In this document: in pieces, positions 4,167 to 35,957 of the stretch
How the letters are laid out: the number at the start of each line of letters is the position of its first letter
Numbering within the stretch: position 1 is the first letter of the stretch
From: Methylococcaceae bacterium
GTDB lineage: Bacteria > Pseudomonadota > Gammaproteobacteria > Methylococcales > Methylococcaceae
DNA length: 37,494 nucleotides
NCBI GenBank assembly: GCA_004299145.1
Contig: SCQD01000088.1
Coordinates: 1 to 37,494 of the forward strand
Direction: 5' to 3'
Program-made: the position numbers and the translations under genes
Notes under the pieces: model-generated
Databases searched by the model: none
What the model was told of the DNA's origin: nothing
Seen by the model: only the letters and a program-made list of their open reading frames with translations

Positions 4167-4414
4167 ATCTCATCCATGCCGGCTAATTCTTCCAGCAATT
4201 CCGCCCTGGTGATATCAATAACAGGCACTTCATTTTTTTTGCATTCGGATATAAAAGTATAAACATCCATTGCCGCCAATTCCGCGGCTTTTGACAGGGT
4301 AATTTTTGCGTTTTTAAATAGCCATAGAGAATAGCTGAGGCGCATATCGTGCTCGATGTCTTTAATTGACTGTAAAACGACAAAGTCATTCGGGAGTTCT
4401 ATTGCAATTTGCAT
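4163..4414 (-). CDS. UPF0175-family antitoxin
   Basis: This 83-residue protein contains the UPF0175 pattern: a short beta-strand start (MQIAIELPND), then KNAKITLSKAAELAAMDVYTFISECKK, a helix-turn-helix-like segment that binds DNA in this family. UPF0175 proteins are usually the antitoxin partner of DUF3368 PIN nucleases encoded directly downstream. Here only the first codons of such a toxin survive, so this is an orphan antitoxin that may still regulate its own promoter. The gene is AT-richer than its neighbours, consistent with acquisition as a toxin-antitoxin cassette. Upstream (4415-4480) is AT-rich and could hold its promoter. Confidence 0.8.
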   Translation of the reverse strand: MQIAIELPNDFVVLQSIKDIEHDMRLSYSLWLFKNAKITLSKAAELAAMDVYTFISECKKNEVPVIDITRAELLEELAGMDEI

Positions 4415-4633
4415 GACTTTTTAAGACAGTGGTGAATAAAAACAAGTCCATGGGTAAACTCGGCTTGTGCTTTAGCCGCTCATGGCGGCAGCGTGGGTTT
4501 GCGGGGAGCCATGATAGCGTTTCCCGGGCCGGGTTCCCATGGGTTCACCCCGGCGGCGCGACGGCAGGCCGTCATCGAATCGTCACACCGGCATGATGAA
4601 ATTTACGCTCCGCTCACTCCCGATTCCCCAGTC

Positions 4634-10700: not shown

Positions 10701-12020
10701 GCCACGGACGGCGGCTTGATTTGGCAAGCCTGGCTGACGCCCGAGCAAATCCGCCGGTTCGGCGAGGGCGAGGCAACCCTGGCCATCGCCACCACCGACC
10801 AGGCGGGCAACAGCGTGAGCTTCAATCAGGTCTTTTGGGTGGACACCCTGGCGCCCGAGGCCGCCGGCATCGATGCGGTCGCCGGGGACGATGTCGTCAA
10901 TGCTCAGGAAACCGAGGTGGGAGTGCAACTGACCGGCAGCAAAGCAGCGGGCAGCACGGTCAAACTGCAAGGCATGGCCAAAGACATCGTGGCCTATGCC
11001 TTGTCCGACACCACCTGGGGCGCCTGGATCGCGCCGGAAACGCTCGCCGCCTGGGGCGAGGGCAGCTATACCCTGGAAGTCGAGACCGAAGACGCGGCAG
11101 GCAATAGCACGCGCAGTGAGCGGAATTTTTCCATCAGTCTGCGCGACGTGGCCGCGCCGACCATAGACCGGGTGGCGGGCGATCACACCATCAACGCGCA
11201 AGAAGCGGCCACCGGCGTGGTACTGAGCGGCGGCAACGAGGCCGGCAGCCGCGTGACTGTGTATGACTGGGCAGGGCAGTGGCCGGCCTCCCCGGTCACG
11301 GACAGCAGCTGGCAAATCACCTTGTCGCCGGCGCAAATCGCGCAACTCGACCAGGGCTGGCACACCTGGTCCATCGTCGCGACGAATGAGGCCGGCAACA
11401 CGGCGACCAGCTACTACATCATGCGCATCGACACCCTGGCCCCGGCCGCCGCCACCCTCGACAGCGTGGCGACGGACGACATCATCAACGCAGAGGAAGC
11501 CGCCGCCGGGGTGACGATCAGCGGCGACAAGGAAGCCGGCAGCACGGTGACCGTCGACGGCCTGGCGGCCACTAGCGTTTCGGCTACCCGCTGGTCCCTC
11601 AACTTGACGCAGGCACAGATCGAGCAGCTCGGCCAAGGGGATAAAACCTTGGCCATTATCGCCACCGACAACGCGGGCAATGCCGCCAGCAATTCGCATG
11701 CTTTGCGCATCGATACGCAAATTCCGCAAGGCCCGGCCACCGACGACGTCGCGGGCGACAACGTGATCGATGTCAGCGAAAGCGCCGCCGGCATCACCAT
11801 TACCGGCAGCAATGAAGCGGGGGCGACGGTGACCGTGGCCGGTTTGCCGGTGGTCGCCGTGACCCCGACCACTTGGCGGATTAGCCTGACGCCGGAGCAG
11901 ATCGGCAAAAAACTGGACGTCGGCGCAACAGTCTTGCCGGTGGAAACCACCGATGCGGCCGGCAACAGCAACAGCATCAGCAAAATCGTCAATGTGGCGG
12001 GTGGCGACGCGCCGTATACG
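7728..12020 (+). repeat. Fourteen tandem Ig-like coding repeats
   Basis: Units were counted by the D(D/N)xIxxxE opening box and the invariant Trp (TNW, TAW, THW, TQW three times, TTW, TRW twice, LIW, TTW, SSW, TRW, TTW). Units 4-7 form a subgroup: they carry an extra N-terminal insertion (QSSL/QSML/WSAV/WSDL types), share AGSSVxVxGK and the ending ST(Y)TLTVDTQ, and are more alike than other pairs, which indicates recent amplification. Confidence 0.8.
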
Positions 12021-14291
12021 GTACGGGCCAGCCAGGACGGCCAGGCCATCCACAAAATTCAGCTGACCATCACCGCCAACGCCTCGGCGGCCCAGGACTT
12101 GGTGTTCCAGGGCTTGGCATCGGGTTGTTCCGTCTACGATCAGGCTGGTCGTGACGTCAGCGCCGGAATCAGCGGTTTCACGGGCCAAGCGGTATACACC
12201 CTGGTGCTGCCGGCCGACACCGATCAACACTTCGACCTCAGCGTGCTACCGGCCGGCGGCGGCACGGCGAGCAGCGCCAACACCGTCGCCGTGGCGCTGG
12301 ACAGCGCCGCGCGCAGCGATGCGCTGTTGTTCGACGCTCAGGACCAAAACCTGTGGAACTCCGGCGGCAATGCCGGTTTTAAATTCCACGAATACATTCC
12401 CCTGCTGGGCACCGAATCCGCAGCTTGGAAAAACAGTGTCAAGCTGGTGGACGCCGGCATAGGCGACAGTCTGGATTTCGGCCTGGATACGCTGGTGCCG
12501 TTCCAGCAGGCGCTGGACAGCGCGAGAGACGCCTTGAATTCGGTCAACTCGGCCTTCGATTGGGCCAAGGGCTTGCTGGATGCGGCCCAGAGCGAGTACG
12601 ACAACGGCCCGTGGTATAAAAAAGCCATCCTGTGGGTTCCGTTGAAAGCCGCCCGGCTCGCATACGACATCGCCAGAGACATCTACGACGATGCCTATCC
12701 CGCCGCCCAGAATGGCCTCAACCAAGCGCAAGCGGCTTACGACGCGCAAAAAGAAATATTGAAGCTGGAATACAAAGCGGGACTGGAATTGAGCGCCGAC
12801 CTCAAAGGCAAGGTCGGCATAGCGGTGGATTTCAGCGGCGATGCCGGGTCGGTGGATTTTGCGCTCGATTACACCATGACGACCCGGACCAGCTACAACC
12901 AGACCACCGACAGCCTGTACATCCTGCCCTCCATGGTCAACAACACCGGCGGCGACCAGGTGGCGTTCACCACGCAGAGCCCGAACGTCAAGTTCGGCGC
13001 CACCATCAAGTACGACGTCGGCGCCAATGTCCACCTGGGCGGCAATGCCTACGCCAAGGCGCTGGGCAACACCCTGATCGACAGCAGCTTCAAGGCCGAC
13101 ATTCCGGTGGCCGCCCAGGGTGAATACAAAGTGGTCGACTTCAACTCCACCAGTTTCAATCCCGACGTACCCACCGATCCTTATCGGTTGCCGGTGCTGC
13201 ACAATCTCACCAAGGGCGTGCTGTCGGCGTATCTGGACGTACCGTCGCTGGCGGTGCAGGGCAAATCCACCGCCTACGACAGCAGCTATTTTCAGGAAGG
13301 CGGCCTGGTGTCGGTCAATTTCGAAGAAATCGCCGATGCGCTGTTCAATTTCCTCAACGCCAACATTCAGTTAAACCCGGAATGGGCCTCGGTCCTGGGC
13401 CAGCAGACCATCGACGGCGTATTGACCTCGTTATGGCAAGCCATCACCGCCGGCAACAACGTGGTGACGCAAAAGCCGGTGTTCATCATGGACGCCACCG
13501 ACTACGGCAAATCAGCACTGTTCCACGTCAACAGCTACGGTGACGACCTGTCGACGCTGAATGCCCATACCGGGTCGCTGGGGTTTTATATGGGGTACGG
13601 CAAGACCGACAACTTCGTCAAGGTCAACATCGATCTGGACCAGCTGGCCGCCCTGGTCGGCAATCTGATCGCCACCGGCGGCGTGATGCCGCCGGTCATC
13701 GTCAACCCGCTGGATCAGGTTTTGAACCTGGCGCAGATTTTGTCGTTCGCCGACGTCAGCGGCGCCACCGCCAGCTTGCTGCAAGAGTTTTTCGACGTGG
13801 AGTTCGAAATCGGCGCGGTGGATGCCGACGTATCGCAGAACGCCAATTTCGGCCAAGAATTCAGCCTGTCGGTCGACGACATGGACTATGTCGTCACGCT
13901 GGAAGACAACGCGCAGTTCAAATTCGCGCTGAACGACGGCAAGGGTCTCACCATCCCCAACGCCAGCCTGCACGACGCCGACCAGGACGGCCTCATCGAA
14001 TACAGCCTGAAAATCGCCCCGGACGCCATGTTTTCCAACGACACGGAGCTGGGGTTGAACATGGGCTATCAGCTCGATTTTTTCAAATCCATGCTGGCGG
14101 TGGACTTTGGCCAGAATGCCATCAAACCGGTGCAGCTGTTCAGCGGTTCCATCGGTCCGTTGCTGCGCGTGCAAGGCAGCATGGACCAGCTGGCCATCGA
14201 CGTGTACGAAAAAAGGTTTCCCGTCGACGTGGGCACGGAAATCGTCGCCATGACCGGCATCGGTTATCAGGACGGTACGATGTTTACCTAA
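7728..14291 (+). CDS. Giant Ig-like-repeat protein, probable secreted adhesin/surface protein
   Basis: The protein has 2187 residues. Residues ~1-1430 are 14 tandem Ig-like units of 90-115 residues resembling bacterial Ig-like domains of BapA-type adhesins. Each opens with a D(D/N)xIxxxE box, has a Gly/Ser turn such as GSxVTVxG, one invariant Trp mid-unit, an LTxxQIxxFGxGxxxL stretch, then (A/T)TDxAGN and VDTxAP. Residues ~1430-2187 are not repetitive: a beta-rich stretch, an alpha-helical segment around 1590-1690 (SARDALNSVNSAFDWAKGLL), further beta-rich sequence, and an acidic DADQDGLIEY motif that could bind Ca2+. No signal peptide is visible at MAKKPTTIAKVAADNV. With no secretion genes adjacent, type I export is a guess and an intracellular role cannot be excluded. 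GGGAG lies just upstream of the ATG. Confidence 0.85.
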   Translation: MAKKPTTIAKVAADNVINAAESAAGVSVTGTTDAGSKVVLDGLKATMLSPTNWKVLLTADQIKAFGQGPEVLKAVTTNQAGKTSSVTQAISVDTLAPKAAEITGVAADPSGSAAYYQDSYVNAAESRKSVLLNGRSEPGSIVTVNGKAVVQYSPTAWQLELTPAQIKAYGQGDEILKIAAADKAGNQTLGNYTLHVDTVAPKPAVFDKTAQNNVIDGAERQAGVTVSGSNEAGASVTLNGWRTVAVSPTHWQIELTAANFKALGTGGKTLKAVATDAAGNQSTATQTITIDAQSTSVTPDGGAPAPATITEVQSSLYGDSAKIHDNVIDADESKLPFWLIGDKAAGSSVKVNGKAVMALSPTQWMLKLTAKEIQAFGAGEEVLQIVATNAAGKKTTSTYTLTVDTQAVSASEPDSPGPAPAIVTSVQSMLNTGLATDRDDVINIEEIQEFFWLQGKKEAGSSVTVDGKPATPISPTQWILALTPEQIQAFGPGEETLQIVATDAAGEKTASTYTLIVDLQGASAPAPAQITRVWSAVDTGWAMDYDDVINAAESKKPLWLTGENEAGSSVTVDGKAVTPFSPTQWTLKLSPEEIQAFGEGEQVLQIVATNIANQKTTSTYTLTVDTQNSEVPKSTAITGVWSDLTPASGWNGDNFINARELQKPFWLYGENEPGSKVTVNGKAVKQNDATTWQLKLLPADLKAFGEGEEALKIVTTDGQGKKTESSYRLTVDSQEPASPVIDPVATDNIVDGDESLQGITIGGSNAPGVSMDFNGWVVEAVSDTRWKIDIAPWSMWWLGSGPQTITATATDEAGNQTTTRQTLIIDLPLETVTQASQNAAAATDTQILELVPATIDVVAGDDVIDAAESQAGVTVTGGKGKGDRVVLNGWETQALSDTRWEYALTPAQVAELGEGAKFWPVYAYHQIGGSSISYQVVTIDTQAPPVLEGYTLPVTADNIVNAQEAAAGVTVDVYRIMEGTQITVDGLPTRAATDGGLIWQAWLTPEQIRRFGEGEATLAIATTDQAGNSVSFNQVFWVDTLAPEAAGIDAVAGDDVVNAQETEVGVQLTGSKAAGSTVKLQGMAKDIVAYALSDTTWGAWIAPETLAAWGEGSYTLEVETEDAAGNSTRSERNFSISLRDVAAPTIDRVAGDHTINAQEAATGVVLSGGNEAGSRVTVYDWAGQWPASPVTDSSWQITLSPAQIAQLDQGWHTWSIVATNEAGNTATSYYIMRIDTLAPAAATLDSVATDDIINAEEAAAGVTISGDKEAGSTVTVDGLAATSVSATRWSLNLTQAQIEQLGQGDKTLAIIATDNAGNAASNSHALRIDTQIPQGPATDDVAGDNVIDVSESAAGITITGSNEAGATVTVAGLPVVAVTPTTWRISLTPEQIGKKLDVGATVLPVETTDAAGNSNSISKIVNVAGGDAPYTVRASQDGQAIHKIQLTITANASAAQDLVFQGLASGCSVYDQAGRDVSAGISGFTGQAVYTLVLPADTDQHFDLSVLPAGGGTASSANTVAVALDSAARSDALLFDAQDQNLWNSGGNAGFKFHEYIPLLGTESAAWKNSVKLVDAGIGDSLDFGLDTLVPFQQALDSARDALNSVNSAFDWAKGLLDAAQSEYDNGPWYKKAILWVPLKAARLAYDIARDIYDDAYPAAQNGLNQAQAAYDAQKEILKLEYKAGLELSADLKGKVGIAVDFSGDAGSVDFALDYTMTTRTSYNQTTDSLYILPSMVNNTGGDQVAFTTQSPNVKFGATIKYDVGANVHLGGNAYAKALGNTLIDSSFKADIPVAAQGEYKVVDFNSTSFNPDVPTDPYRLPVLHNLTKGVLSAYLDVPSLAVQGKSTAYDSSYFQEGGLVSVNFEEIADALFNFLNANIQLNPEWASVLGQQTIDGVLTSLWQAITAGNNVVTQKPVFIMDATDYGKSALFHVNSYGDDLSTLNAHTGSLGFYMGYGKTDNFVKVNIDLDQLAALVGNLIATGGVMPPVIVNPLDQVLNLAQILSFADVSGATASLLQEFFDVEFEIGAVDADVSQNANFGQEFSLSVDDMDYVVTLEDNAQFKFALNDGKGLTIPNASLHDADQDGLIEYSLKIAPDAMFSNDTELGLNMGYQLDFFKSMLAVDFGQNAIKPVQLFSGSIGPLLRVQGSMDQLAIDVYEKRFPVDVGTEIVAMTGIGYQDGTMFT

Positions 14292-17177: not shown

Positions 17178-17525
17178 GTTCCCACGCTCCGCGTGGGAAT
17201 GCAGCCCGGGACGCTCTGCGTCCCGTATCCCGCCACGCCGCAGAATAACCAAGGCCCATAAAATTACCCAGGGCGATTTTCTCGTTCCTCGTTTTCTCGT
17301 TCCCAAGCTCTGCTTGGGAAAGCCGCCGACGCAGTCGGAATAACTAAGGCTTCTAGAGTGCAGTCCGGGAAGCTCCGGCTTCCCGCTTCTGCCCTGGGAG
17401 CCGGAGCCAGTTCGACAAGACTCGGGACAGGTTTCCAGGAGCAGATTTCCAGCCTGGAGGTTGGGAACCGGGGAACACGGGACGCGGAGCGTCCCAGGCT
17501 GCGTTCCCACGCCGAGCGTGGGAAC
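17178..17525. repeat. REP-like array of at least six hairpins upstream of the dehydratase gene
   Basis: The 385-base gap 17148-17532 contains gttcccacgctccgcgtggga (17178-), gggacgctctgcgtccc (17208-17224), gttcccaagctctgcttggga (17299-), cgggaagctccggcttcccg (17366-17385), gggacgcggagcgtccc (17479-17495) and gttcccacgccgagcgtggg (17503-; stem ends ~17525). Arms are well conserved but loops vary between tcc/ctc/gga types. The array fills the gap between the aspS stop and the dehydratase start, so any dehydratase promoter must lie inside it. Confidence 0.88.
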
Positions 17526-20071: not shown

Positions 20072-20992
20072 ATGACTCAAGACCGCCGTTTAGTCGTCGC
20101 CATTTCATCCAGGGCGCTGTTCGACCTGGACGAATCCCATCGGATTTTCGAAACCGAAGGCAAAGACGCTTATTGCCGTTATCAGGTCGAGCGCGAAGAG
20201 CAGCCCCTGCCGCCCGGCGTGGCGTTTCCGCTGGTAAAGAAGCTGCTGGCCATCAACGAAGCCTTGGCGGAACGGCCGCTGGTGGAAGTGATTCTGCTGT
20301 CCCGCAACAGCGCCGATACCGGCTTGCGCATCTTCAACTCCATCCAGCACCACCAATTGAACATCAGCCGCGCGGCATTCACCAGCGGCGACTCCCCTTT
20401 TGCCTATATATCGGCTTTCGGCGCGCATTTGTTTTTGTCGGCCAATGCCGAAGACGTGGTGCAGGCTCTGGAATCGGGAATAGCCGCCGCCACCATCATG
20501 TCGTCGGACTCCGCGCCCAGCGCCTTCGATCAGCAATTGCGCATTGCTTTCGACGGCGACGCGGTATTGTTTTCCGATGAGTCGGAGCGGATTTACAAGG
20601 CCCAAGGCTTGGCGGCGTTTACCGAGAACGAAATCACCGAGGCCAAAAAACCTTTATCCGGCGGTCCGTTCAAGGATTTCCTGGCGGCCTTGCACTATAT
20701 CCAAAACCAGTTTGGACTGGAACGCTCGCCGATTCGCACGGCACTGGTGACGGCGCGGGCGGCGCCGGCCCATGAACGGGTGGTGCGCACGTTGCGGGCC
20801 TGGAATATCCGCATCGACGAGGCGCTGTTTTTGGGCGGCATGGATAAAAGCGATTTTTTGCGCGCGTTCGGCGCCGATATCTTTTTTGACGACCACCGCG
20901 GCCACTGCGAATCGGCCAGCCGGCACGTGGCCACCGGCCACGTGCCGCACGGCATCGCCAACCTCAGCCCTGCACCAGCTGATAGTGACTGA
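20072..20992 (+). CDS. Cytosolic 5'-nucleotidase family protein (PF06189-like)
   Basis: This 306-residue protein would dephosphorylate nucleoside monophosphates in the cytoplasm. It starts MTQDRRLVVAISSRALFDLDESHRIFE and has LVEVILLSRNSADTGLRIFNSI, ITRAAFTSG-like sequence (ISRAAFTSGDSPFAYI), IAFDGDAVLFSDESERIY (a second DxD-type loop), LVTARAAPAHERVVRTLRAW and FLGGMDKSDFLRAFGADIFFDD. These are the hallmarks of the 5'-nucleotidase family and give nearly its full length. Its 3' end overlaps the oppositely oriented PilZ-like gene by 29 bases. Substrate preference cannot be read from the sequence. Confidence 0.88.
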   Translation: MTQDRRLVVAISSRALFDLDESHRIFETEGKDAYCRYQVEREEQPLPPGVAFPLVKKLLAINEALAERPLVEVILLSRNSADTGLRIFNSIQHHQLNISRAAFTSGDSPFAYISAFGAHLFLSANAEDVVQALESGIAAATIMSSDSAPSAFDQQLRIAFDGDAVLFSDESERIYKAQGLAAFTENEITEAKKPLSGGPFKDFLAALHYIQNQFGLERSPIRTALVTARAAPAHERVVRTLRAWNIRIDEALFLGGMDKSDFLRAFGADIFFDDHRGHCESASRHVATGHVPHGIANLSPAPADSD

Positions 20993-22595
20993 AATACGCC
21001 GTGGCTTCCAACAGCCGCGCCAACCGTAAATTTTTCCATTCTCCCTGGTGTTCCACCGTCAGCCACAACCCGTTGGCAAAACTCATGGCCGGCAGGATGA
21101 TGGTTGCGGCAATGCCGCCGTCCTGCTCGCTGCCGATCAGCAGGCAGAACAGACTGCGTTTCTGCTCGCCTTCCAGGTAGGCTTTGCAAGCGTGCAGCGC
21201 TCCAGAAACCACCTCTACATCGGCAAACGCGCGCGTGGCATCCAGGGCAGGAGTAGCCGCACGAATCATGCCGGCGCAAACAGGCACGCCCTCCCCCCGC
21301 ATCAGGATGAAATCACCCACCCGCAAGCTCGAGCGGTCTGCGATCAACATGGCCCTGCGGTTGCCGGCATCAAAATGCATCAAGCCCTGTTGGCAGTGTT
21401 GCGCTGCGCTGACTTCCCTGGTGCCGGCCGCCCAGATTTCTTCACGGCTGATTTGCGGATGCCGAGCCGGCCGCGGCTCAAAGCACTGGGGTACCCGTTC
21501 CGATAATCTGCTGCGCGCATCCTGGGCTGGAGCCTGCAATTCCAGAACATTGCCTTTGCCGCCATCCAAACCGTTGACGCGCCGCACGAGCTTGGCAACG
21601 TCGGCCGCCAGCAACGCGGCAATACCATCCACCCCGCCGGCAAACAGCACGGGGCTGTTGTGCCGGCCGCCTTGCCGGTATTCCCGGCAGGGCGTCAAGC
21701 GGCAAGCAACCGTTTGCCCAAAAACCGGCCCAGCGTCGCGGGATTGCAAGCGCTCCAGCAATTGAGGATTCAGAAACAAAAAGCGGTGGTCGGTGCTGAC
21801 TGTGCCCAGGGCGCCGATGGGCTGCGGCATGGCGTTGTCGGCGAGGTCCAGGTAAAAGTCGGCTTCTTGCAGATTAAACGCCCGCTCATGCTGCAATCCC
21901 ACCCACTGAATATGCTCATCCAGCCAAGCATACAGAGCGGCGCTTTCCCGCTGCGACAAGCGGGTGGGCAGCGCCAGCTGGAAAACGGCAATTTTGCACA
22001 GCCACTGACGGGGCGTAAGGCAAGCAAGTTTCTCATCATCCGTGTCCGCACTTTGGTTGTCGATGATGTCCGAGATTTCGGCACGGCGATAGATTTGCTG
22101 GATTTTGCGCCATACGTCCAACATGGGGGATTCATAGCATTGTGCGCTGCGCAACAGGTACAGGCCGTAAGCGGCCAGCGCCCGCTCAATCGCCGTGGTT
22201 TGCTGGGACTTGCTGAAAGCATGGGCGAAGTTGGCGGCATCGGTCACCCGATGATAGCCCAGCGCCAGTTCCGCCTGGAACTGCACGACCAGGCGGACTA
22301 ATTTGGCGATTTTGTCGTCCAGCGGAAAGGTTTGCCCCAGAAAATAGGGATCGAAACGGCGGCAGTATTGCAGCACTTGCGGACGCAACAGTTCCATCAG
22401 CTGCAAACGCTGATGGGCGGGCAGTTCCGTGCGGTTCAAGCTGCGCAGGGCCTGGAATAATTGCCGGCAGCCGTCGCCGAACCCCAGGCTGGGCAAAAAC
22501 TTCAACCAAGCATCGAAAGCGGGGATGGTAACAGCGCAAGGCAGCGCGTTGTCGGCAACGCTGCTGATCTTGTGGGTGGCGGTTGCGGTGGTCAT
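20964..22595 (-). CDS. Uncharacterised protein, possible C-terminal PilZ-like domain
   Basis: The protein has 543 residues from ATG 22595 (MTTATATHKISSV), which has GGGAG about 10 bases upstream. The N-terminal ~230 residues are helical (AFDAWLKFLPSLGFGDGCRQLFQALRSLN begins the recognisable part). The C-terminal ~150 residues are beta-rich, with RAMLIADRSSLRVGDFILMR followed by a loop and ADVEVVSGALHACKAYL, in the position where gammaproteobacterial proteins of this type carry a PilZ-like fold. The c-di-GMP motif RxxxR...(D/N)xSxxG is not intact, so nucleotide binding is doubtful. Similar long proteins are sometimes labelled 'molecular chaperone', with no clear basis I can see. No membrane segments. 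Cysteines are scattered. Likely cytoplasmic; role unknown. Confidence 0.65.
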   Translation of the reverse strand: MTTATATHKISSVADNALPCAVTIPAFDAWLKFLPSLGFGDGCRQLFQALRSLNRTELPAHQRLQLMELLRPQVLQYCRRFDPYFLGQTFPLDDKIAKLVRLVVQFQAELALGYHRVTDAANFAHAFSKSQQTTAIERALAAYGLYLLRSAQCYESPMLDVWRKIQQIYRRAEISDIIDNQSADTDDEKLACLTPRQWLCKIAVFQLALPTRLSQRESAALYAWLDEHIQWVGLQHERAFNLQEADFYLDLADNAMPQPIGALGTVSTDHRFLFLNPQLLERLQSRDAGPVFGQTVACRLTPCREYRQGGRHNSPVLFAGGVDGIAALLAADVAKLVRRVNGLDGGKGNVLELQAPAQDARSRLSERVPQCFEPRPARHPQISREEIWAAGTREVSAAQHCQQGLMHFDAGNRRAMLIADRSSLRVGDFILMRGEGVPVCAGMIRAATPALDATRAFADVEVVSGALHACKAYLEGEQKRSLFCLLIGSEQDGGIAATIILPAMSFANGLWLTVEHQGEWKNLRLARLLEATAYFSHYQLVQG

Positions 22596-22734
22596 GGTCT
22601 TAGCTCCCAGAGTTAGCGGCAAGTCATCTACTTGCCGGCAATGTTAGGAAATTTGACCGGGCGTAAAGGGGGTTTGGTTCACAAAATCACGGTTGCTCAG
22701 GACGGGATGGGCAAATTGTGACGCAATACAGCCA

Positions 22735-25442: not shown

Positions 25443-27239
25443 ATGAGCGTTTCAATCAAATCCCAGGTGCGCTATACCCAGTCCATCGTCTTCAAAGCGC
25501 TGCTCTATTTGTGTCTTTCGATCATCGGGATCGCGCTGTTGACCAGTCTGGGTTTTTATCTTCACCAAGAGCGTACCTTCAAAAAAAACGTCGTGAACGA
25601 GGGGCTGGGTTATCTGTCCACGCTGAAGAGCGAATCGAACGACTCGATTTCCAAAGGGCAGCGTGATTCGTTTCAGCGCGTGCTCGACAGCATCGCCACC
25701 ATCGACCACGTCATCTATACGGCCCTATATGCCCGCAACGGCTTGATGACTTACCGCTCGGGCGAAGTGACGGTCGGCAAGCCCTTTACGCGGGATGCGC
25801 AAACTCATCGGTTGATCAACAACAACCTCGAACTGTACCGGGCAAGCGGTGGACGCTATCAGCGCGAGGACTGGAGTTTGCGCGACCTGGGAGAGAACGG
25901 GAAAGCCCGCGCCCATATCCAGGAAAAACAGGCTGCGGGCACGGCCTGTGGCGGCTGCCATTTCGACCTCGGCGCTTTCAAGCTCGAATTCGACAGCCAA
26001 CGCACGGCTTATCGCCTGGACCAGGGCGCCGCCAGTTTCTTCTACAAGATTCCGGTAGACGGCGCCTGCATCAGCTGCCACACCCATTGGCGCCAAGGCG
26101 AGCACGCGGGATTTCTGGAAATCAAAATCGACACCGCAGCCGCCGAAGCCCAGAAACGCGACACGCTGACCTGGATCGGCTTGATGCAGATAGCCGTGCT
26201 CATACCGGTGCTGGCCATCATTTTCATGGTGTTCCGTTTCATGATCCATCGCCCGCTCAACCGCCTGGCCGACTCATTGAACGACCTGACGCAGGGCGAA
26301 GGCGACTTGACCCACTTGCTCGAAGCAACAACCGAGGACGAAATGAGCTTATTGTCCCGGCTGTTCAACCGGTTTATCGAAAAAATCAAAGTCATCGTCA
26401 TCGCTGTCAAACAGCAGATGAGTTCCGTCGATCGCTGGGGCAATCAAGTCGCCGACCGCAGCGGGCAGATCTATCTGAGCAACAATAAACTGGCCGCCAC
26501 GCTCAATCACGTTGCCGACAACACCGGCCGCATGCAAGAAGCCTCGACGGCGGTGAGCAGTTCCATCGGCCTGATTTACCAGGACATACTGCGTCTGGTC
26601 GAATTGATCAACCGCACGCACTCGGCGGCCACCCAGAACCAGCAGTCCACCGGCTCTGCCGCCAATGAAATCGATGGCTTGTCGGGAAAAATCAGCGCGC
26701 TGAGCAGCCAGTCCAACGAAGTGGTCACCCGCGTGGCCCACATCAACGACATTGCCGCGCAAACCAATTTGTTGGCGCTCAATGCCGCCATCGAAGCGGC
26801 GCGGGCGGGCGAGCACGGCCGTGGCTTCGCCGTGGTGGCGGAAGAAGTGCGCAAACTCGCGGACCAGACCAGCAAGCTCACCGAATCGATCAACTCGACG
26901 CTGGGCAGCTTTACCCAGGAAATCCAGCACGCCAGCGAAATCATGCAGACCATCCGTTCGAGCATGGAAAAATTATCCATCTCCTCGCAAGGCACGGCGG
27001 ACGATTTGAAGAACACAGCAGGACGCATCGACGATCTGAATCGGGAGTTCCAAAACGTCAATAATCTGATGAGCGAACAGCAAAGGATCACCAGAGACAT
27101 TACCGACCAGATTATGGAAGCGCACAGCGAAGCCAACCAAACCCAGGAGGTAACGGCAGAGCTGAATCGGCTGTCTTCAAGCTTGCAGAAAGCGGTCAAA
27201 GACGTTGCGCTGGAAACGTCCAAGTTCAAGACGGAGTGA
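25443..27239 (+). CDS. Methyl-accepting chemotaxis protein with two c-type heme motifs
   Basis: The 598-residue receptor is laid out as follows: membrane helix 1 (~residues 17-41), a ~200-residue periplasmic domain, helix 2 (~244-266), HAMP (~267-320) and a signalling domain with [20 protein letters not shown] and [20 protein letters not shown]. The periplasmic domain has CGGCH (169-173) and CISCH (209-213), classic covalent heme-attachment motifs. The receptor therefore probably senses redox state, O2 or NO, or another heme ligand, and signals to CheA/CheW. No EAAAR-type methylation pentapeptide tail is seen at the C-terminus (ends KFKTE). It is monocistronic, with a REP repeat just past its stop. 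No che genes are in the window. Confidence 0.92.
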
Positions 27240-27257: not shown

Positions 27258-27318
27258 CTACGACACAGGACGCGGAGCGTCCAAGGCTGCATTCCCACGC
27301 GGAGCGTGGGAACGATAA
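27258..27318. repeat. REP pair, near-identical to the copy at 29925-29985
   Basis: ctacgacac then ggacgcggagcgtcc (27268-27282) and attcccacgcggagcgtggg (27291-; stem ends ~27313). It differs from the 29925-29985 copy by one base over 61. It sits between the convergent ends of the chemoreceptor and hydrogenase small-subunit genes. Confidence 0.9.
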
Positions 27319-27332
27319 TGAATCCTCATGAC

Positions 27333-28277
27333 TTATGTGGAGGAACCACCGCCACTCGACGCTTCCCGGTTGATATGGAACATGACTTGCCGGGGAAATT
27401 GCCGGCTGGCGCAGCCGATGCAAGGGTGGCCGGCGCGGATGCAGGTATTGGTATTGCCGTTGTGGCCGGTAATCAGACAATCATTCTTGGTAACCGGTCC
27501 CTGACAGCCCAGTTTCAATAAACAGCCGTCATCGCCCACGTGCTGGGCAAAGCGGTGTTCCTGGAAGGATGAATAGAAAATACAGCGCTCGTGCACCGTG
27601 TGCGCAAAAAACTTGAGCGGGCGCTTATCGTTGTCCAGAGCCGGGAATGTTCCCGTCTTGATCAGGTGCAGCAAGGTATAGACGAAATGCTCCGGCTTCA
27701 TGGGGCAATTCGGCAAATTGACCAGGTCCACCTTGATATTCCGCTTGTTCAAATACTCTTCCAGCGTCATCGACCCGGTCACCGTGCCTGGCATTTTCGG
27801 CACGCCGCCCATGGTGGCGCAGGTGCCGGCAGCGATGCAGGCCTGAGCGCGGCTGGCGAGCAAATCCACCCATTCGGTGATGGGTTTGTCCGCCATCAGA
27901 CAGGCGTGGGGCATGCCTTCGGGAATGCCGCCTTCAAACACGAAAAGATAAGGCCGCTTGCTCCGCACCAGTTCGTCGATCAACGCCGGCACCTGCTCGC
28001 CGGTGGCGAGCGACAGGTCGGGATGAAACACCACGCGGGTAAACTGGGTAAGAATGTCGATGACCGGCACATACTCGATGTTCATAAAAGAAATCGAACA
28101 CCCCGAACAAGAACTGCCGTGCAACCAGATCACGTGCGGCTTATCCCGTGCGGGCACGGCCTCGGCGGCCAGGATATCCTCGAACGAAATAAACTGGCTC
28201 GCCCCCACGGCGGCGATGGCTTTAAAAATACGCTTAAGCGCCTCGCGGCGGCCGATGTGTTCGCTTAAATAATACAT
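27333..28277 (-). CDS. [NiFe] hydrogenase small subunit
   Basis: The 314-residue protein carries the Fe-S electron-relay clusters of a group 1-like [NiFe] hydrogenase. A weak twin-arginine-type leader is visible (GRREALKRIFKAIAAVGAS). Proximal cluster ligands are Cys57 and Cys60 (SSCSGCS), Cys153 (GTCATMGG) and Cys191 (NCPMKPEH). The distal cluster uses His229 and Cys232 (HERC), Cys252 and Cys258. The medial cluster uses Cys267, Cys286 and Cys289 (HPCIGC) plus Cys279. There are no extra proximal cysteines of the O2-tolerant type. The C-terminus ends SSGGGSST with no membrane anchor, unlike HyaA/HupS. It starts 9 bases after the large-subunit stop, so it is the second gene of the operon, the reverse of the usual order. 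The subgroup cannot be fixed by eye. Confidence 0.93.
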   Translation of the reverse strand: MYYLSEHIGRREALKRIFKAIAAVGASQFISFEDILAAEAVPARDKPHVIWLHGSSCSGCSISFMNIEYVPVIDILTQFTRVVFHPDLSLATGEQVPALIDELVRSKRPYLFVFEGGIPEGMPHACLMADKPITEWVDLLASRAQACIAAGTCATMGGVPKMPGTVTGSMTLEEYLNKRNIKVDLVNLPNCPMKPEHFVYTLLHLIKTGTFPALDNDKRPLKFFAHTVHERCIFYSSFQEHRFAQHVGDDGCLLKLGCQGPVTKNDCLITGHNGNTNTCIRAGHPCIGCASRQFPRQVMFHINREASSGGGSST

Positions 28278-28286
28278 GATAAGCTC

Positions 28287-29837
28287 CTAGTGTACGGAAC
28301 ACGCCAGACAAGGATCGGTGGAACGGATGATCCGCGCCAGTTCCATGGGGTGTTCGGGATCTTTCAGCGGCGTACCGATCAGCATTTTTTCCAGCGCGCC
28401 GGGTTGCCCGGCGCGATCGCGCGGTGACATGTTCCAGGTGGTGGGCACGATCAGCGTATAGCGGCGAATCCGGCCTTTGGCGTCCGTTTCGATCCAATGC
28501 CCCAGCGAACCGCGCGTGGCTTCGGTCAAACCGACACCCACCGCGTTTTTCGGCACCTCCGCTTCCACAAAAGCCACTTTGTCGGGCTCCACTTGCTCCA
28601 GCTGCTCTTTCAACATGTCGATGATCAGGCTGGCCGACAGGTAGCGGCACAAATGGCGTCCCATGACGGAGGGGTAATCGCTCAGGGTAATGCCGAATTG
28701 CTGGTTGATGGCATCGGCCAACTGATTCAGCTTGGGATTGGCGCCACTCAAATACGTATTGACGATGCGGGCGGCAGGGCCGACTTCCATCACCTGGCCC
28801 TGATAGCGCGGCGCCCGGCACCAGCTGTACTTGCCGTCGGCTTTGTCGCGCTCTTTTTGGAACTCCTGCCAACCGATGGGCGTCACGTCCCCGCCCAAGG
28901 GTTTTAGCGCGCCGGATACGGCATCTTGATAGTAAGAATAAGCGTGTTCCTCGGTAATGCCCTGCATGTCCAGCGGCGCATATCGTCCGTTCAGCGTAAC
29001 GCCGCTGCTGAAAGCATGATGCTTGCCGTCGGGGTCGGGAAAGTAAGCGTAGGAAAGCAACTGGCCGTAGCCTTTGCCTTGCTGAAAATAGTCCTTGAAC
29101 TGATGCCCCACCGCCATGACGTCGTTGCGGTAACAGTCGTGGACAAACCTTTCCGCGCGTTGCAACAGCGTGCGGTAATAGCCGATTTTTTCCGCCGTCG
29201 GCACCGTGGTCACGCCGCCGGCCTCGATAGCCGTGGGATGCGGTGCTTTGGCGCCGAAAATGGCGACCATTTTATGCAGATCCGCCAGCACCGGAATGGC
29301 GTCCATATAGTGCTTGATCGCCGTAATGTTGAGTTCCTGATCCTCCGCATAATTGCCTTTATAACGCGGCAAGAAAGGCGCGGCCGGAAAGACTTTTTCG
29401 CTGTCGAGTTCCTGGGCGACCCAGGCCTTGAGGCGGAGCAAGTCCGCGTCGCCGCCGCCATAATGGAGCACGGCGGCGATATCGATAAAATCCAGCAGGC
29501 ACAGGGTATAGAAATGCAGTAGAAAATCGTGCAGCTGATAAGCGCCGACGATCAGATTGCGCAAAATCTGGCCGTTGCGGTTGGGCTTGATGCCCATGGC
29601 ATTTTCCAGCGCCAGGGAAGCCGCTTCGGCGTGACCGTAGGGGCAGATGCCGCACACCCGCTGCGTGACTTGCTGGGCTGCACGCGCATCATAGCCCTCC
29701 AGCGCTTTTTCGATGCCCCTGAACATGTCGGCCGAGCAATGGGCATCGACCACCACGCCATTTTCCACCCGCGTCTTCACCCGCATATGCCCTTCGATGC
29801 GCGTTACCGGATCGATGGTTACCGTTCTGCTCGTCAT
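28287..29837 (-). CDS. [NiFe] hydrogenase large subunit without C-terminal extension
   Basis: The 516-residue catalytic subunit holds the NiFe(CN)2CO site. The N-terminal ligand motif is RVCGICPYGH (Cys62, Cys65) and the C-terminal motif is DPCLACSVH (Cys510, Cys513). The stop codon TAG follows that His directly, so there is no peptide for an HyaD/HupD-type protease to remove. Conserved segments DPVTRIEGHMRV, RGIEKALEGYDARAA and MEVGPAARIVNTYL support the family. AAGGGG lies just before the ATG. No hyp genes, endopeptidase or cytochrome b subunit is adjacent. The redox partner and whether it is exported are unknown. Confidence 0.94.
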   Translation of the reverse strand: MTSRTVTIDPVTRIEGHMRVKTRVENGVVVDAHCSADMFRGIEKALEGYDARAAQQVTQRVCGICPYGHAEAASLALENAMGIKPNRNGQILRNLIVGAYQLHDFLLHFYTLCLLDFIDIAAVLHYGGGDADLLRLKAWVAQELDSEKVFPAAPFLPRYKGNYAEDQELNITAIKHYMDAIPVLADLHKMVAIFGAKAPHPTAIEAGGVTTVPTAEKIGYYRTLLQRAERFVHDCYRNDVMAVGHQFKDYFQQGKGYGQLLSYAYFPDPDGKHHAFSSGVTLNGRYAPLDMQGITEEHAYSYYQDAVSGALKPLGGDVTPIGWQEFQKERDKADGKYSWCRAPRYQGQVMEVGPAARIVNTYLSGANPKLNQLADAINQQFGITLSDYPSVMGRHLCRYLSASLIIDMLKEQLEQVEPDKVAFVEAEVPKNAVGVGLTEATRGSLGHWIETDAKGRIRRYTLIVPTTWNMSPRDRAGQPGALEKMLIGTPLKDPEHPMELARIIRSTDPCLACSVH

Positions 29838-29924: not shown

Positions 29925-30005
29925 CTACGACACGGGACGCGGAGCGTCCAAGGCTGCATTCCCACGCGGAGCGTGGGAACGATAAAAACGCGGAGCGTGG
30001 GAACA
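29925..30005. repeat. REP array upstream of the hydrogenase operon
   Basis: 29925-29985 repeats 27258-27318 in the same orientation with a single mismatch, containing gggacgcggagcgtcc (29934-29949) and attcccacgcggagcgtggg (29958-; stem ends ~29980). A further half-copy, cgcggagcgtgggaac, follows at 29990-30005. The hydrogenase genes are thus bracketed by direct repeats about 2.67 kb apart. The array lies in the 309-base divergent gap 29838-30146. Confidence 0.9.
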
Positions 30006-30146: not shown

Positions 30147-31931
30147 ATGCGATGGTTGACATGGCGGCCCAAACCACCCAGCCCGGCCCAGGTCTATGCC
30201 CCAGCACCGACAGAGTCCTCGCCGCAGTTTCTGGACACCGAGGCGGAAAGCCGGCTCGGCTGGGAACGCAATACGGCGGCACTCCAGCCTTTGAAAATGG
30301 CCCTGCTGGCAGGCGCATTCACGTTTCTGGCGTTTATCCCGCTGGATGCCATGACCCGAGCATTGACGCTGCCGGCACTGCTGGGGCGCGTATTCACGGT
30401 GCTGGCGCTGCTGGGCCTGTTCTGGCGCCTGCAGCGCCAAACGCAGGAGTCGGCGATAACCGAGGTCGGAAAAGTGGCGAGCCTGGCGATTACCATCGCC
30501 GCGCTGGGACTGGCCGGCATGCTGCTGTCGGACGGTCAGCCGGTTTTTTACGCGGAAACCTGGCCGGGCTTGTTGCCCATCTATTTTTTCAGCTATGGTC
30601 AATTGATCGTGCCGCTTTACGTCAGCCTGGCGTTCGGCTGGCTCGCCATGGCCGCCCTGCTGGCAACCGGCCACGCCGTCGGCGTCGAAACCATGGCGCT
30701 GCTGCCGTCGTTTCTCATCCTGTTTATCGTCAACCTGTTCGGCCTGGCCACGCGCTGCCGGCTGGAAGCCTGGTCGCGCCATTCGTTCCGGCAGCGGTGC
30801 CTGGCCGAAAACTCCGCTGAAGACAAAGCGCTGTTCCTGCGGCAAACCAGCCACAACTTGCGCCAGCCCCTGCAAGCGCTCAGCTGTTATTCCGCCGTGC
30901 TGGACCATGCCCTGGCGCACAACCGCGTCGAAGAATCGCAACGGGCGGCGCTGAAAATCGGTCTTGCCATCGACGAACTGAACGAAGCCTTCAACCGCAT
31001 CCTCGATATTGCCAACCTGGAAAGCGGCAAACAAATTCCTGCCATCGGAGCCGTCGAAATCAATCCCCTGCTGGCCGCGCTGGAGGACCAATTTGCCCCC
31101 AAAGCCCAGCAGCGCGGCTTGCGCTTAAAAATATTGCCGCGCACCAAACCGCCGTTCACCGTTTGCACCGACCCCAGTTTGTTGCGGCAGATATTGAGCA
31201 ACCTGCTGGACAACGCCGTCAAATACACCAGCGACGGCTGGGTATTGGTCGCGGCCGTCAAAACCGCGCCCGACCGGCTCAAACTGCACGTACGCGACAG
31301 CGGCATCGGCATCGCACCCGCGGAGCAGCAAGACATTTTCCAGGAGTTTTACCGGGGACGCAGGCAACACGGCGACACACACCCGCACGGCCTGGGCATA
31401 GGCTTGGCCTATGTCGCAAAAGCGCTGCAACGCTTGCCTGAACACCGTTTGGCTTTACACTCGCAGACGAACCGGGGCAGCGACTTTGCGCTGGAGTTGC
31501 CCAGTCGCACGGAAACGTCAACTTGCGCCAGTACCGCCCCGCCCGCCTGGCCCACCGTCGACGGCAGCTACGTACTGCTGGTGGACGATGACACGACCGT
31601 GCTCGATGCCCTGGCGGAGCAACTGGAATGCTGGGGATGTCTGGTGGAAAAAGCCCGTTCCCTGGCCGAAGTCCGCCACGTGCTGGCGGAAAGCCAGCGA
31701 CCGCCGGACTTGCTGATCAGCGATTTTTACCTGACCGCCGGCGAAACCGCCCACGACGTGCTGGCGGCCGTGCAAGCCGACTGCGGGCCGCTGCCCACCA
31801 TCATACTGTCAGCCCGCACCATTAGATCAGGCAACCCGGCTGGTTGGCCGGCCGATACGCGGTTTCTGCACAAACCCGCCGGCGCGGCGGCATTGCGCGC
31901 AGCCATCACCGCAGTCATGAACAAACATTGA
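30147..31931 (+). CDS. 7TM hybrid sensor histidine kinase/response regulator
   Basis: The protein has 594 residues. Residues ~48-205 form about six or seven membrane helices of a MASE-like sensor region, with no PAS domain. HisKA has the phospho-acceptor at His236 in SHNLRQPLQALSCYSAVL. HATPase_c shows the N box LLDNAVKYTSDGW, then DSGIGIAP and HGLGIGLAYV. A C-terminal receiver (~residues 475-590) has VLLVDDDTTVLDAL and LLISDFYL with the phospho-Asp around 526, and Lys in LHKPAGAAAL. The LRQPL form of the H box is typical of hybrid kinases paired with LuxR-type regulators, such as the one encoded convergently next door. It is divergent from the hydrogenase operon. The input signal is unknown. 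Confidence 0.92.
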   Translation: MRWLTWRPKPPSPAQVYAPAPTESSPQFLDTEAESRLGWERNTAALQPLKMALLAGAFTFLAFIPLDAMTRALTLPALLGRVFTVLALLGLFWRLQRQTQESAITEVGKVASLAITIAALGLAGMLLSDGQPVFYAETWPGLLPIYFFSYGQLIVPLYVSLAFGWLAMAALLATGHAVGVETMALLPSFLILFIVNLFGLATRCRLEAWSRHSFRQRCLAENSAEDKALFLRQTSHNLRQPLQALSCYSAVLDHALAHNRVEESQRAALKIGLAIDELNEAFNRILDIANLESGKQIPAIGAVEINPLLAALEDQFAPKAQQRGLRLKILPRTKPPFTVCTDPSLLRQILSNLLDNAVKYTSDGWVLVAAVKTAPDRLKLHVRDSGIGIAPAEQQDIFQEFYRGRRQHGDTHPHGLGIGLAYVAKALQRLPEHRLALHSQTNRGSDFALELPSRTETSTCASTAPPAWPTVDGSYVLLVDDDTTVLDALAEQLECWGCLVEKARSLAEVRHVLAESQRPPDLLISDFYLTAGETAHDVLAAVQADCGPLPTIILSARTIRSGNPAGWPADTRFLHKPAGAAALRAAITAVMNKH

Positions 31932-32655: not shown

Positions 32656-32883
32656 GAAGCTTTCCGTGTCCGAGGTGAAATGATGGATTTTACAAGTTGT
32701 TAAGCCAAATGGGGATTGGCACTTGGGTGCTGGTACGGAGGAGGGATGATAATTGGCGCACATTGATAAAAAATTACAACTGATGAATGTATCAATCAAG
32801 CGTTGTGGCAAACACACATAAACCTTTTTTCTCAACAGCCAAACGAACTACATCACTTCCTAGATAACTGTATTGGAAATTCT

Positions 32884-33858
32884 ATGCAAATAACAAGGTT
32901 ATTTTTAGCAATAGGTTGTGGTATTGCATTAGCAGCTTGCCAAACATCGAAACATTACAACGAGCTTCATGGCCCAGCATCATCGCTATCTGATTACGGC
33001 GATCAAAAACAAAGCAATGACAGCTTTTGCAGTAACACTTTGTGTAATGAGGAAAGTATTCTCCAATCTTATGCTCAACGCGCTGGTCTTAGCGGTGAAC
33101 TCCCACTGACCTTAAGTGAAAATTGGCAACTTGTTGTTCGGGCAGGTCTTAATGCCATTGACGAACAGTGTGAAGCCTATATGCAAGCCATGTTCTGGGC
33201 TGACCGAGAAATGCGCACCGCGCGTGACAATATAAATCTAATAGGAGCAACTACTGGGACACTTATGGGGGTTTTCGGTGGCCCGGCGACAGCCATAGCC
33301 ACATCTGCAGCTGCATTTGGTTTGGCTACTCAAACAATCACCAATGAATCGAAAGGATTGCTTTTCGATATCGAACCTTCTGGCGTTCGGCGCATCGTCT
33401 CACGCAATCAAGCTACCTACCGACAAGGGATAGAGGACCGAATACAGATCTATAATTCAAGGCCTGCTGCTGTAACCGCAATTCAAGGCTACTTGACCAT
33501 TTGCTTACCAGCTCACATAGCGAGCCAAATTAATGAGGCAATTGACTTATCAAAATTCCAAGTTATCGAATCAACGTCAACCATAAAAAACCCCAAAGTC
33601 GAAGTAACACAGATAGCCGCAAAAAGTAATGAAGAAATCCATACCTACACCTATCAAAAATCCGAAGATAGTGCCTTGCTATGGAGTTGGCTGTCACCCC
33701 AGGGGAAAAGAGACAAAGAGAACTGGGGCATACTAAATAAATGGCTAGAATCTAATAAAATCAATATGTCGATATCAAGCTTTGTAGATGCATCAGAAAT
33801 GGCAAACCAGAGAAAGGACGCCATTAATTACTTAAAGAATAAAGGGTTAATAAATTAA
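32884..33858 (+). CDS. Lipoprotein of unknown function
   Basis: The protein has 324 residues from ATG 32884 (MQITRLFLAIGCGIALAAC), a clear lipoprotein signal with lipobox LAAC and lipidated Cys19, so it is envelope-anchored. The body is mostly helical, with a Gly/Ala-rich hydrophobic stretch (LIGATTGTLMGVFGGPATAIATS) that could be a membrane-inserting hairpin, and several Cys (SFCSNTLCNEE). I do not recognise the family. It is AT-rich, unlike everything to its left, and lies 10 bases before the peptidoglycan hydrolase gene, so the two are one transcript. Immunity to, or delivery of, that hydrolase is a reasonable guess. Confidence 0.75.
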   Translation: MQITRLFLAIGCGIALAACQTSKHYNELHGPASSLSDYGDQKQSNDSFCSNTLCNEESILQSYAQRAGLSGELPLTLSENWQLVVRAGLNAIDEQCEAYMQAMFWADREMRTARDNINLIGATTGTLMGVFGGPATAIATSAAAFGLATQTITNESKGLLFDIEPSGVRRIVSRNQATYRQGIEDRIQIYNSRPAAVTAIQGYLTICLPAHIASQINEAIDLSKFQVIESTSTIKNPKVEVTQIAAKSNEEIHTYTYQKSEDSALLWSWLSPQGKRDKENWGILNKWLESNKINMSISSFVDASEMANQRKDAINYLKNKGLIN

Positions 33859-35032: not shown

Positions 35033-35264
35033 ACATCGCACATCACCACCCCATTGAAATAAATTTAGCTGCTTATTAAGTTATCCTGCAAAATTAACCT
35101 GACATTCGCCCCGATCCCAGCAACCATGCAGCGACGTGCGGAGCAGAGCTGCGTTATGGGGATGTAAAACACAGGAAACACAAAAACTTATATATACTTT
35201 CGCTTATTACAAAGAATACAGATCTACAAAATTCTTGACAAAGCCACCCCGCAATGAACAAAAA

Positions 35265-35957
35265 ATGAACAATCTATTTGTATTTTTAATTCTCACTGCC
35301 ATTGGAGCAATGCCAGTCTTTCTCTTGGTAGCAGCATTATCGCGCCTGCCAATTAGAGCGGCATACGCCAATACAATGGACTTTTTGGCGCTTTGGGGAG
35401 GAATTGCACCCAGGATACTACGAACATGGATAAGGAAGACAATAGGGTCAACAGCAAGCTTTGCCATATTGGTTGCGTTAACTGTATCGTTCAACGCACT
35501 TGGAGATGGGCCTGCCATTCCTTATCTTTCTGGCCTGTTCGATCACTTCGGCAATACATACACCCAGTGGTCAAACAAACATGAAAAGGACTGGAGTGAA
35601 TTTAGAGACTCTATCAGAAAAGGATGGAGTAAAGAGCATGCGAACGAGGATTTAATCGCAGATATTGATGCATGGAACAAATGGAAGACAGCAAGAGGGA
35701 AAGACAGCGTGCGCATACCACGAACATTAGTATTTTATTGTGCCATACTTGCAATGGCCGGATTAATAGATTTGACACACAAAGAATCTCGAAGTCGCGG
35801 CGCACTGTTATCGGCGCTTGGAATACTATCATTCATATCGTTCCTTTACATATGGGCAGACAGGAAAAACAGTTATATACACAATATTATACTTGCAAAT
35901 GAAACACTTGGTTTTTATAAAACGCCTATACCAGAATCGCTCAACAACAGCAGATGA
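35265..35957 (+). CDS. Multi-TM membrane protein of unknown function
   Basis: The protein has 230 residues from ATG 35265 (MNNLFVFLILTAIGAMPVFLLV). An upstream in-frame ATG at 35136 is less likely. Helices lie at ~3-25, ~67-85 (TASFAILVALTVSFNAL), ~165-180 (TLVFYCAILAMAGLI) and ~190-210. A charged, Trp-rich ~70-residue loop separates helices 2 and 3 (DWSEFRDSIRKGWSKEHANED). I do not recognise it. Its place between two murein hydrolase genes suggests an immunity or holin-like role, which is inference only. The gap 35033-35264 is AT-rich with no clear element. Confidence 0.65.
   Translation: MNNLFVFLILTAIGAMPVFLLVAALSRLPIRAAYANTMDFLALWGGIAPRILRTWIRKTIGSTASFAILVALTVSFNALGDGPAIPYLSGLFDHFGNTYTQWSNKHEKDWSEFRDSIRKGWSKEHANEDLIADIDAWNKWKTARGKDSVRIPRTLVFYCAILAMAGLIDLTHKESRSRGALLSALGILSFISFLYIWADRKNSYIHNIILANETLGFYKTPIPESLNNSR

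Follow-up and report, generated by a model that had tools for sequence, protein, structure and literature searches.

A [NiFe] hydrogenase lineage without a C-terminal peptide, encoded beside a diheme chemoreceptor: a candidate two-part H2 receptor

Introduction

What is the function of a [NiFe] hydrogenase whose large subunit ends at the nickel-site histidine and whose small subunit carries a Tat-like leader, and how would such an enzyme mature? The question is raised by a locus of a Methylococcaceae bacterium on contig SCQD01000088.1, of which we analyzed a 37,494-nt stretch, referred to here as the window. According to a 2025 review, the groups that lack the C-terminal peptide are 2b, 2d, 4c, and 4e, the peptide probably prevents early joining of the immature large subunit with a Tat-bearing small subunit, and HoxG engineered without it stays active (PMC12134894). 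The [NiFe] sensors of HydDB are described as linked to histidine kinases (2b) and, putatively, to diguanylate cyclases (2c), and methyl-accepting chemotaxis proteins (MCPs) are mentioned in the HydDB table only for [FeFe] group C2, as putative (PMC5037454). Methanococcus maripaludis is reported to show taxis towards H2 (Brileya 2013, as cited in PMC4266047), and a cluster of 87 MCP genes near [NiFe] hydrogenases is tabulated, uncommented in the sections at hand, in PMC12727194. Our literature search, mostly of titles and abstracts and including few subscription papers, found no description of a [NiFe] hydrogenase tied to a heme MCP and, by title, no receptor for H2. The locus described here offers a candidate H2 receptor, with a putative cofactor path leading from H2 to CheA whose parts are each open to testing. 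If this is true it would, as far as these searches reach, give H2 taxis its first dedicated receptor of defined composition, and it would also be the first case of an exported [NiFe] hydrogenase in which the proteolytic checkpoint is naturally bypassed. The locus is of interest for hydrogenase maturation too, as the Tat-like leader is present and the peptide absent in one lineage.

Materials and methods

The window was searched as contig C113 of its genome. When 84,980 species genomes were scanned with back-translated peptides, nine loci (L001 to L009) were obtained, a lower bound given the low sensitivity of the scan; eight of them have an intact large subunit and L009 is internally deleted. 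Profile searches added G232, G116, and G428, together with G724 and G654, which form a sister pair. L004 and G336 are one contig, counted once. The heme domain was modeled by AlphaFold2 from eight sequences, and the flank scan comprised ten flank genes in eight loci. The resulting set has 12 members including the window, the other 11 of which are 59.3–64.1% identical to the window large subunit, and two sister genes that are 43.3 and 44.1% identical to it. The genes are carried by, among others, Chromatiaceae, Sedimenticola, and a campylobacter MAG.

Large subunit

The hydrogenase genes, the adjoining MCP gene, and the nearest kinase gene are listed in Table 1. Pfam and NCBIfam identify the pair as a nickel-dependent hydrogenase large subunit and a hydrogenase small subunit, with the NCBIfam matches lying below the curated cut-offs. 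The L1 motif of the large subunit (CGIC, residues 62–65, with C62 and C65), the L2 cysteines (C510 and C513), the Glu of TRIEGH, and the Arg of the TRG..(G/A)H motif are all kept, and the protein therefore looks catalytic. Residue 64, within L1, is Ile in the window, as it is in HoxC/HupV, while the other members and the sister genes displayed have CGVC.

Table 1. Features of the hydrogenase–MCP locus in the window
Feature	Position	Strand	Description
MCP chemoreceptor, 598 aa	25443..27239	+	Two predicted TM helices, periplasmic diheme domain, HAMP, MCP signaling domain
Periplasmic Cache-like domain	25548..26168	+	Two CxxCH heme-c motifs, MCP residues 169–173 and 209–213
Hydrogenase small subunit, 314 aa	27333..28277	-	Twin-arginine leader, without C-terminal membrane helix, ligands for three predicted [4Fe-4S] clusters
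Tat-like leader region of small subunit	28158..28277	-	RR at residues 10–11, motif only
[NiFe] hydrogenase large subunit, 516 aa	28287..29837	-	From translation, Pfam/NCBIfam, and alignment; without C-terminal peptide
L2 motif DPCLACSVH and TAG stop	28287..28316	-	Ends at Ni-site His
Hybrid histidine kinase with receiver domain	30147–31931	+	Divergent, about 310 bp upstream of large subunit

A preliminary description of this DNA had noted that the large subunit stops at DPCLACSVH with TAG directly after the His, and had suggested asking whether homologues end in the same way. Translation of the window bears out the first point, since the codon right after the final His is TAG (28289–28287), and the comparison answers the second: all 14 large subunits compared (the window, 11 relatives, and two sister genes) terminate at the same L2 His. 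The eight intact large subunits from the species-genome scan end in DPC(I/M)ACSVH, those of G232, G116, and G428 in DPC(I/M)ACS(V/I)H, and the two sister proteins in DPCLACAVH. The first position of L2 is Cys in 14/14, encoded by TGT in the window. In a 48-row alignment, whose group 1 rows were collected by scripts seeking a DPCxxCxx(H/R) motif and thus represent enzymes with that motif, 31 of 31 ordinary group 1 enzymes extend beyond the L2 His, and the genome's own HupL, encoded on C98, has a normal extension (...STHVMDQDGKELLRVQVR). Three HoxC/HupV proteins in the same alignment have no residues beyond this His, as had been stated of these exceptions at the outset.

An artefact, in which a base error at 28287–28289 creates the stop and the true gene is extended like its homologues, had also been envisaged. 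We found no point in its support, and a sequencing error is ruled out because the same end is present in 14/14 genes from separate genomes, none of them with an extension. Moreover, a GGAG resembling a ribosome site and the ATG of the small subunit come directly after the stop in the window. The probability that we attach to the artefact is negligible.

Small subunit

The coordinates confirm that the large gene precedes the small one with a gap of 9 bases, and the Tat-like leader that had been seen on the small subunit (GRREALKR in its N-terminus) has its counterpart throughout the group, as a motif comparison finds an RR leader in 12/12 small subunits. A hydrophobic helix was sought in the last 40 residues of the small subunits and is absent, so that no anchor helix is predicted, and a Pfam scan of the window found no cytochrome b gene beside the pair, the adjoining genes encoding the MCP and the kinase. 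All 12 small subunits share the same twelve predicted cluster ligands without exception: four proximal Cys, a distal His with three Cys, and four medial Cys, of which Cys279 aligns with a Pro of 1h2a_S, a solved periplasmic [NiFe] small subunit. The assignment of these ligands to clusters is based on the alignment to 1h2a_S and on what we take to be the arrangement in known structures. An O2-tolerant [4Fe-3S] proximal cluster was considered and rejected, as the two positions that presumably hold its extra Cys, by analogy with Hyd-1 and MBH, are Gly in 12/12.

Phylogenetic placement

Could the lack of the peptide simply reflect membership in HupV/HoxC (HydDB group 2b), as had been considered possible? 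A maximum-likelihood tree of 30 rows, with [NiFeSe], 1a/1b, 2d, 4c, and 4e sequences left out, places the 12 members in a clade of their own (100/100), apart from the three HoxC/HupV (100/100), with support of 99/98 for the sister and 100/99 for extended group 1; the joining of members, sister, and extended group 1 is unresolved on this tree. Thus, for 2b, the extension-less group covered by the tree, placement inside a well-described group was not found. Of the original reading, membership in HupV/HoxC fell with the tree, and a protease-independent enzyme with a Tat-like leader, most likely a sensor, stood. A HupV-like gas channel was likewise rejected: at the position two places after HFY or HFH, which we assume to be that of the gas channel, six members and two sister genes displayed have Leu versus Phe in the three HoxC/HupV.

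The nearest solved structures by sequence are of the [NiFeSe] type (328 bits) and the Desulfovibrio-type [NiFe] (315 bits), where the PDB scores stand in for [NiFeSe] and 1a/1b enzymes, absent from the tree, and the species names of the matched chains are in part presumed. The [NiFeSe] family NF033181 (cut-off 600 bits) was scanned against two members and one sister protein; the window (530.7) and L008 (540.6) both fall below the cut-off and the sister L075 (659.7) lies above it. The members are spread patchily, in two of 251 genomes of the host's order, in Chromatiales, in a campylobacter MAG, and in an unplaced MAG, and this suggests transfer.

The enzyme can be compared with several known systems. 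With HupUV/HoxBC (RH; HydDB 2b) it shares the lack of the C-terminal peptide, a proposed role as an H2 sensor acting with a signaling protein, and three [4Fe-4S] clusters, predicted here and measured in RH. However, the members form the separate clade described above, at 31–34% identity. HupUV/HoxBC is cytoplasmic, with a small subunit that has no Tat leader, whereas the members have the RR leader in 12/12 (motif only); and it pairs with a cytoplasmic HoxJ-type kinase, whereas the constant neighbor here is a periplasmic diheme MCP (12 of 14 loci), with kinases of varied make-up near the cluster in the window, L006, and L008. The [NiFeSe] and Desulfovibrio-type group 1 enzymes are the best sequence matches among solved structures and are soluble with a Tat-like leader, and the medial [4Fe-4S] cluster predicted in the members is a further likeness to [NiFeSe]. 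In contrast to [NiFeSe], the members have Cys, not Sec (TGA), at L2, lack the C-terminal peptide, and have a linked MCP; the matched [NiFeSe] chain, of 507 residues, extends 15 beyond the aligned His where the members stop. The prototypical group 1 uptake hydrogenase also has a Tat leader on the small subunit (in the members a motif only), but the peptide is present in 31/31 of its rows versus 0/14 here. The [FeFe] group C2, designated 'chemotactic (putative)', has the same proposed job, H2 sensing via MCPs, which is putative in both cases; the metal site and fold of [FeFe] hydrogenases are unrelated to those of [NiFe] enzymes. Being group-1-like, Tat-leader-bearing, peptide-free, and MCP-linked, the enzyme described here falls outside the kinds set out in the relevant parts of PMC5037454 and PMC12134894.

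Diheme chemoreceptor

The gene beside the hydrogenase pair, overlooked in the preliminary description, encodes an MCP with two heme-c motifs, and this neighbor is the main evidence for the function of the enzyme. The window MCP passes the Pfam cut-offs for PF00015 (113.3 bits) and PF00672 (HAMP, 34.5 bits), and the NCBIfam matches of the MCPs are to MCP families, all below cut-off, and to several coiled-coil families. Its predicted TM helices are at residues 15–33 and 250–268, with both CxxCH motifs between them. Exactly two CxxCH lie between both predicted TM regions in 13 of 13 MCPs (10 members including the window, L009, and two sister proteins). Just 13 aligned positions are invariant across 12 sensors, namely both CxxCH sets, a His upstream of the first, a Trp after the second, and five others; the invariant His is a candidate axial heme ligand.

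The AlphaFold2 model of the heme domain (mean pLDDT 85.9, pTM 0.82) has a long helix followed by a Cache-like sheet, with one CxxCH at model residues 134–138 in a long insertion and the other at 174–178 in the loop before the last strand (186–195). Foldseek ranks WalK Cache domains first (E 8e-4), and VIA-align superimposes 132 residues on a WalK Cache domain with Z 11.1 and 3.2 Å rmsd; hence the model has a Cache fold. The heme-c MCP sensor GSU0935 takes fourth place in Foldseek (E 2.6e-3) but with a TM of just 0.24, its crystal form being a swapped dimer, and it is absent among the best 50 VIA-align matches. At the level of profiles, there is no match to PF11845 at E up to 1, Tll0287 (5b82) gives E 0.89, and MtrC decaheme cytochromes score best in the PDB (E 3e-4), over profile positions 102–168 only. 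The sister diheme domain is homologous to that of the members (hhalign probability 97.4, E 1.2e-11).

MCPs with a periplasmic heme-c Cache-like domain are known as GSU0582/GSU0935, DcrA, and the heme-Cache family (DUF3365/Tll0287), and the member MCPs are of the same general build. Heme-Cache domains are described as having one CxxCH, before the last strand (2026 preprint), a place that the second CxxCH of the member domain matches. The first CxxCH is extra, located in the insertion before strand 3, and together with the lack of a PF11845 match it distinguishes the members from that family. A dedicated hydrogenase adjoining the MCP sets them apart from the heme-c chemoreceptors as a whole.

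Genetic linkage

A small subunit and a diheme MCP are adjacent to the large subunit in 12 of 14 intact large-subunit loci (12 members and two sister loci), so that the linkage extends over two clades. The order large–small–MCP is found in L002 to L006 and G232, with gaps of 7–18 nt (large–small) and 2–21 nt (small–MCP). The small–MCP gap is 54 nt in G428 and about 300 nt in G116 (by the first Met found), where the contig ends before the signaling domain of the MCP. The sister loci share this order; with the starts adopted here, the two gaps measure 174 and 74 nt in G724 and 78 and 281 nt in G654. In L008 the MCP lies upstream of the large gene, at a distance of 28 nt. In the window itself the MCP is convergent with the hydrogenase pair, 93 bp apart, and is therefore not co-transcribed with it, which counts against a two-part receptor. 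Two exceptions, both from Chromatiaceae, weigh on the same side: L001 (a 6.3 kb contig) and L007 (17.3 kb), on which no small subunit, MCP tip, or paired heme motif was detected; their lone large subunits are at L001:2255-3805 and L007:8001-9551. In L009 (8004-8390), from Thiorhodococcus mannitoliphagus, the start of a large subunit runs into the end of a small subunit beside an intact diheme MCP, the result of either a real deletion or an assembly collapse. An MCP two genes upstream of HupUV in Bradyrhizobium guangxiense (L080:1-1484) was considered and set aside, with no CxxCH in the 494 residues seen.

The hydrogenase and the heme domain also occur together at the genome level. Among 369 genomes of the class, the large-subunit profile A1 has four matches (979.8 to 1012.4 bits; next best 357), and the four matches of the heme-domain profile A4 (E up to 1e-6) fall in these genomes too, each on the contig that A1 matches. 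In the order (251 genomes), G000 and G428 are the A1 matches at E up to 1e-120; A4 retrieves both, plus a 23-bit match, G608, which was rejected as a multiheme protein. The naive chance of the four-by-four overlap, 1.3e-9, is not to be taken at face value because the profiles contain the window and G336 (A1, A4) and G232 (A4); the co-occurrence is in part circular for this reason. G116 and G428, which are outside both profiles, still agree with it. The sister-type profile A6 gives G724, G654, and G783 among 349 genomes of the phylum, together with a 23-bit match, G740, rejected as a single-CxxCH protein with what appears by eye to be a GGDEF-like part. G783 has a sister-type diheme MCP at a contig end (L090:6296-8431), such that a hydrogenase, if any, would be off the contig; the large-subunit profile search gave no large subunit in G783, if it is among the 398 genomes of that search. 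Distances between large subunits and between MCP sensors correlate with r = 0.93 in 10 members, a value reached in 0 of 10,000 permutations, and those of large and small subunits with r = 0.94, although such a correlation may come partly from shared species history.

The same data bear on whether this is an ordinary uptake enzyme. Soluble periplasmic hydrogenases of this kind are generally known to pass electrons to cytochromes. The intact catalytic motifs would suit an enzyme that feeds the respiratory cytochrome pool, with the MCP as a general redox sensor reading that pool, and the heme-c MCPs of Geobacter, with potentials of -156 and -251 mV, have indeed been described as redox sensors (PMC8396549). 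On the other hand, the genome already has a HupL with a normal extension, the tie to one type of MCP spans two clades, and loss of the peptide is otherwise reported for the sensory groups 2b/2d and for groups 4c/4e (PMC12134894), and we regard ordinary uptake as unlikely.

Neighboring signaling genes and genome equipment

The MCP is not the sole signaling gene around the cluster, as kinases are found near it in the window, L006, and L008. This raises the alternative that, as with HupUV, a nearby histidine kinase is the output; the candidate in the window would be the divergent hybrid kinase upstream of the large subunit. Kinase domains are present about 0.5 kb beyond the MCP in L006 (12956-14551) and, in L008, in the gene that precedes the MCP (4121-5560). 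These kinases differ, however, being of the PAS-HATPase type in L006, HisKA-HATPase in L008, and a hybrid with a receiver domain in the window, the last NahK/ErcS-like but below the cut-off (225 of 400 bits). The single flank genes scanned in L002, L003, L005, L009, L051, and L074 are not kinases, and the hydrogenase lies outside the HupV clade. The nearby kinases vary in side, orientation, and make-up, and the diheme MCP is the constant neighbor in 12 of 14 loci, so that we assign kinase output a very low probability. Apart from the L006 and L008 kinases, the flank scan gave a GGDEF-EAL protein in L009 and otherwise other proteins or genes without a match. A MASE3-PAS protein is encoded beyond the large subunit of L001.

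It had been observed that no protease or hyp gene is nearby, and for HycI-type proteases and HypC there is no match on C113. A genome-wide search, as had been recommended for hyp genes and endopeptidases, gave HycI-type protease matches on C200 and C327 and HypC matches on C137 and C200. The genome also has one FlhA, one CcmF, and eight matches to the CheA dimerization domain. From these matches, maturation, c-type heme attachment, and chemotaxis would all be available to the host.

Hypothetical mechanism

A hydrogenase that is free of trimming and is usually encoded beside a heme MCP probably lets cells sense H2 and steer. From the sequence features above we consider it probable that the locus encodes a two-part H2 chemoreceptor, in which H2 taxis is driven by the reduction of a diheme MCP, and the reductant is an H2-sensing [NiFe] hydrogenase that is periplasmic and protease-independent. 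In the mechanism that we propose, the general Hyp machinery would load the NiFe cofactor into the hydrogenase dimer, the C-terminal peptidase not being needed, and the dimer would be exported, folded, through Tat. H2 would then be oxidized by the hydrogenase in the periplasm, and the electrons would reach the diheme Cache domain of the neighboring MCP by way of the three predicted [4Fe-4S] clusters. Reduction of the hemes, probably accompanied by altered heme ligation, would shift the helices of the receptor such that CheA activity changes, and this change would cause the cell to swim relative to H2. We also favor, with somewhat less assurance, the broader view that this is a new branch of [NiFe] enzymes serving as the ligand-reading subunit of a chemoreceptor, exported by Tat and free of proteolysis, where electrons from H2 pass to a diheme Cache domain and result in H2-directed swimming.

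The potential of H2 is -413 mV at pH 7 and 1 atm. The Geobacter heme MCPs, whose potentials are given above and which are thought to signal by a redox-linked ligand change (PMC8396549), would thus be within reach of H2, and by analogy this makes electron transfer to the diheme MCP plausible. RH also contains three [4Fe-4S] clusters, and its authors liken it to [NiFeSe] enzymes (PMC5665086).

A different use of the same parts can be envisaged, in which contact alone matters: the H2-occupied hydrogenase would alter the MCP as a protein ligand, and the hemes would serve stability or an input from NO, O2, or redox state. RH and a histidine kinase form a complex, and the acceptor for electrons from RH itself is described as still unknown (PMC5665086). 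A signaling heme-Cache domain binds NO, and heme-Cache domains fused to signaling modules are described as behaving like NO sensors (2026 preprint), which by analogy counts against reading H2 through heme reduction. Nevertheless, both CxxCH and the upstream His are invariant in 12/12 sensors, which fits an electron path, and a pure contact sensor would have no need of heme motifs. We therefore judge signaling by contact to be quite improbable.

Other features of the window

An open frame of 2187 aa is present at 7728–14291 (+), and the longer ORFs at 20964–22622 (-), 32803–33858 (+), and 35136–35957 (+) have no Pfam match at 1e-4. The large–small pair is flanked by a 61-nt direct repeat, 98% identical and containing two short palindromes, at 27258–27318 and 29925–29985, and the palindrome of the repeat appears again at 17178–17199 and, with one mismatch, at 17504–17525. 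The repeat may be a trace of the pair's movement or of the event that left the MCP convergent with it.
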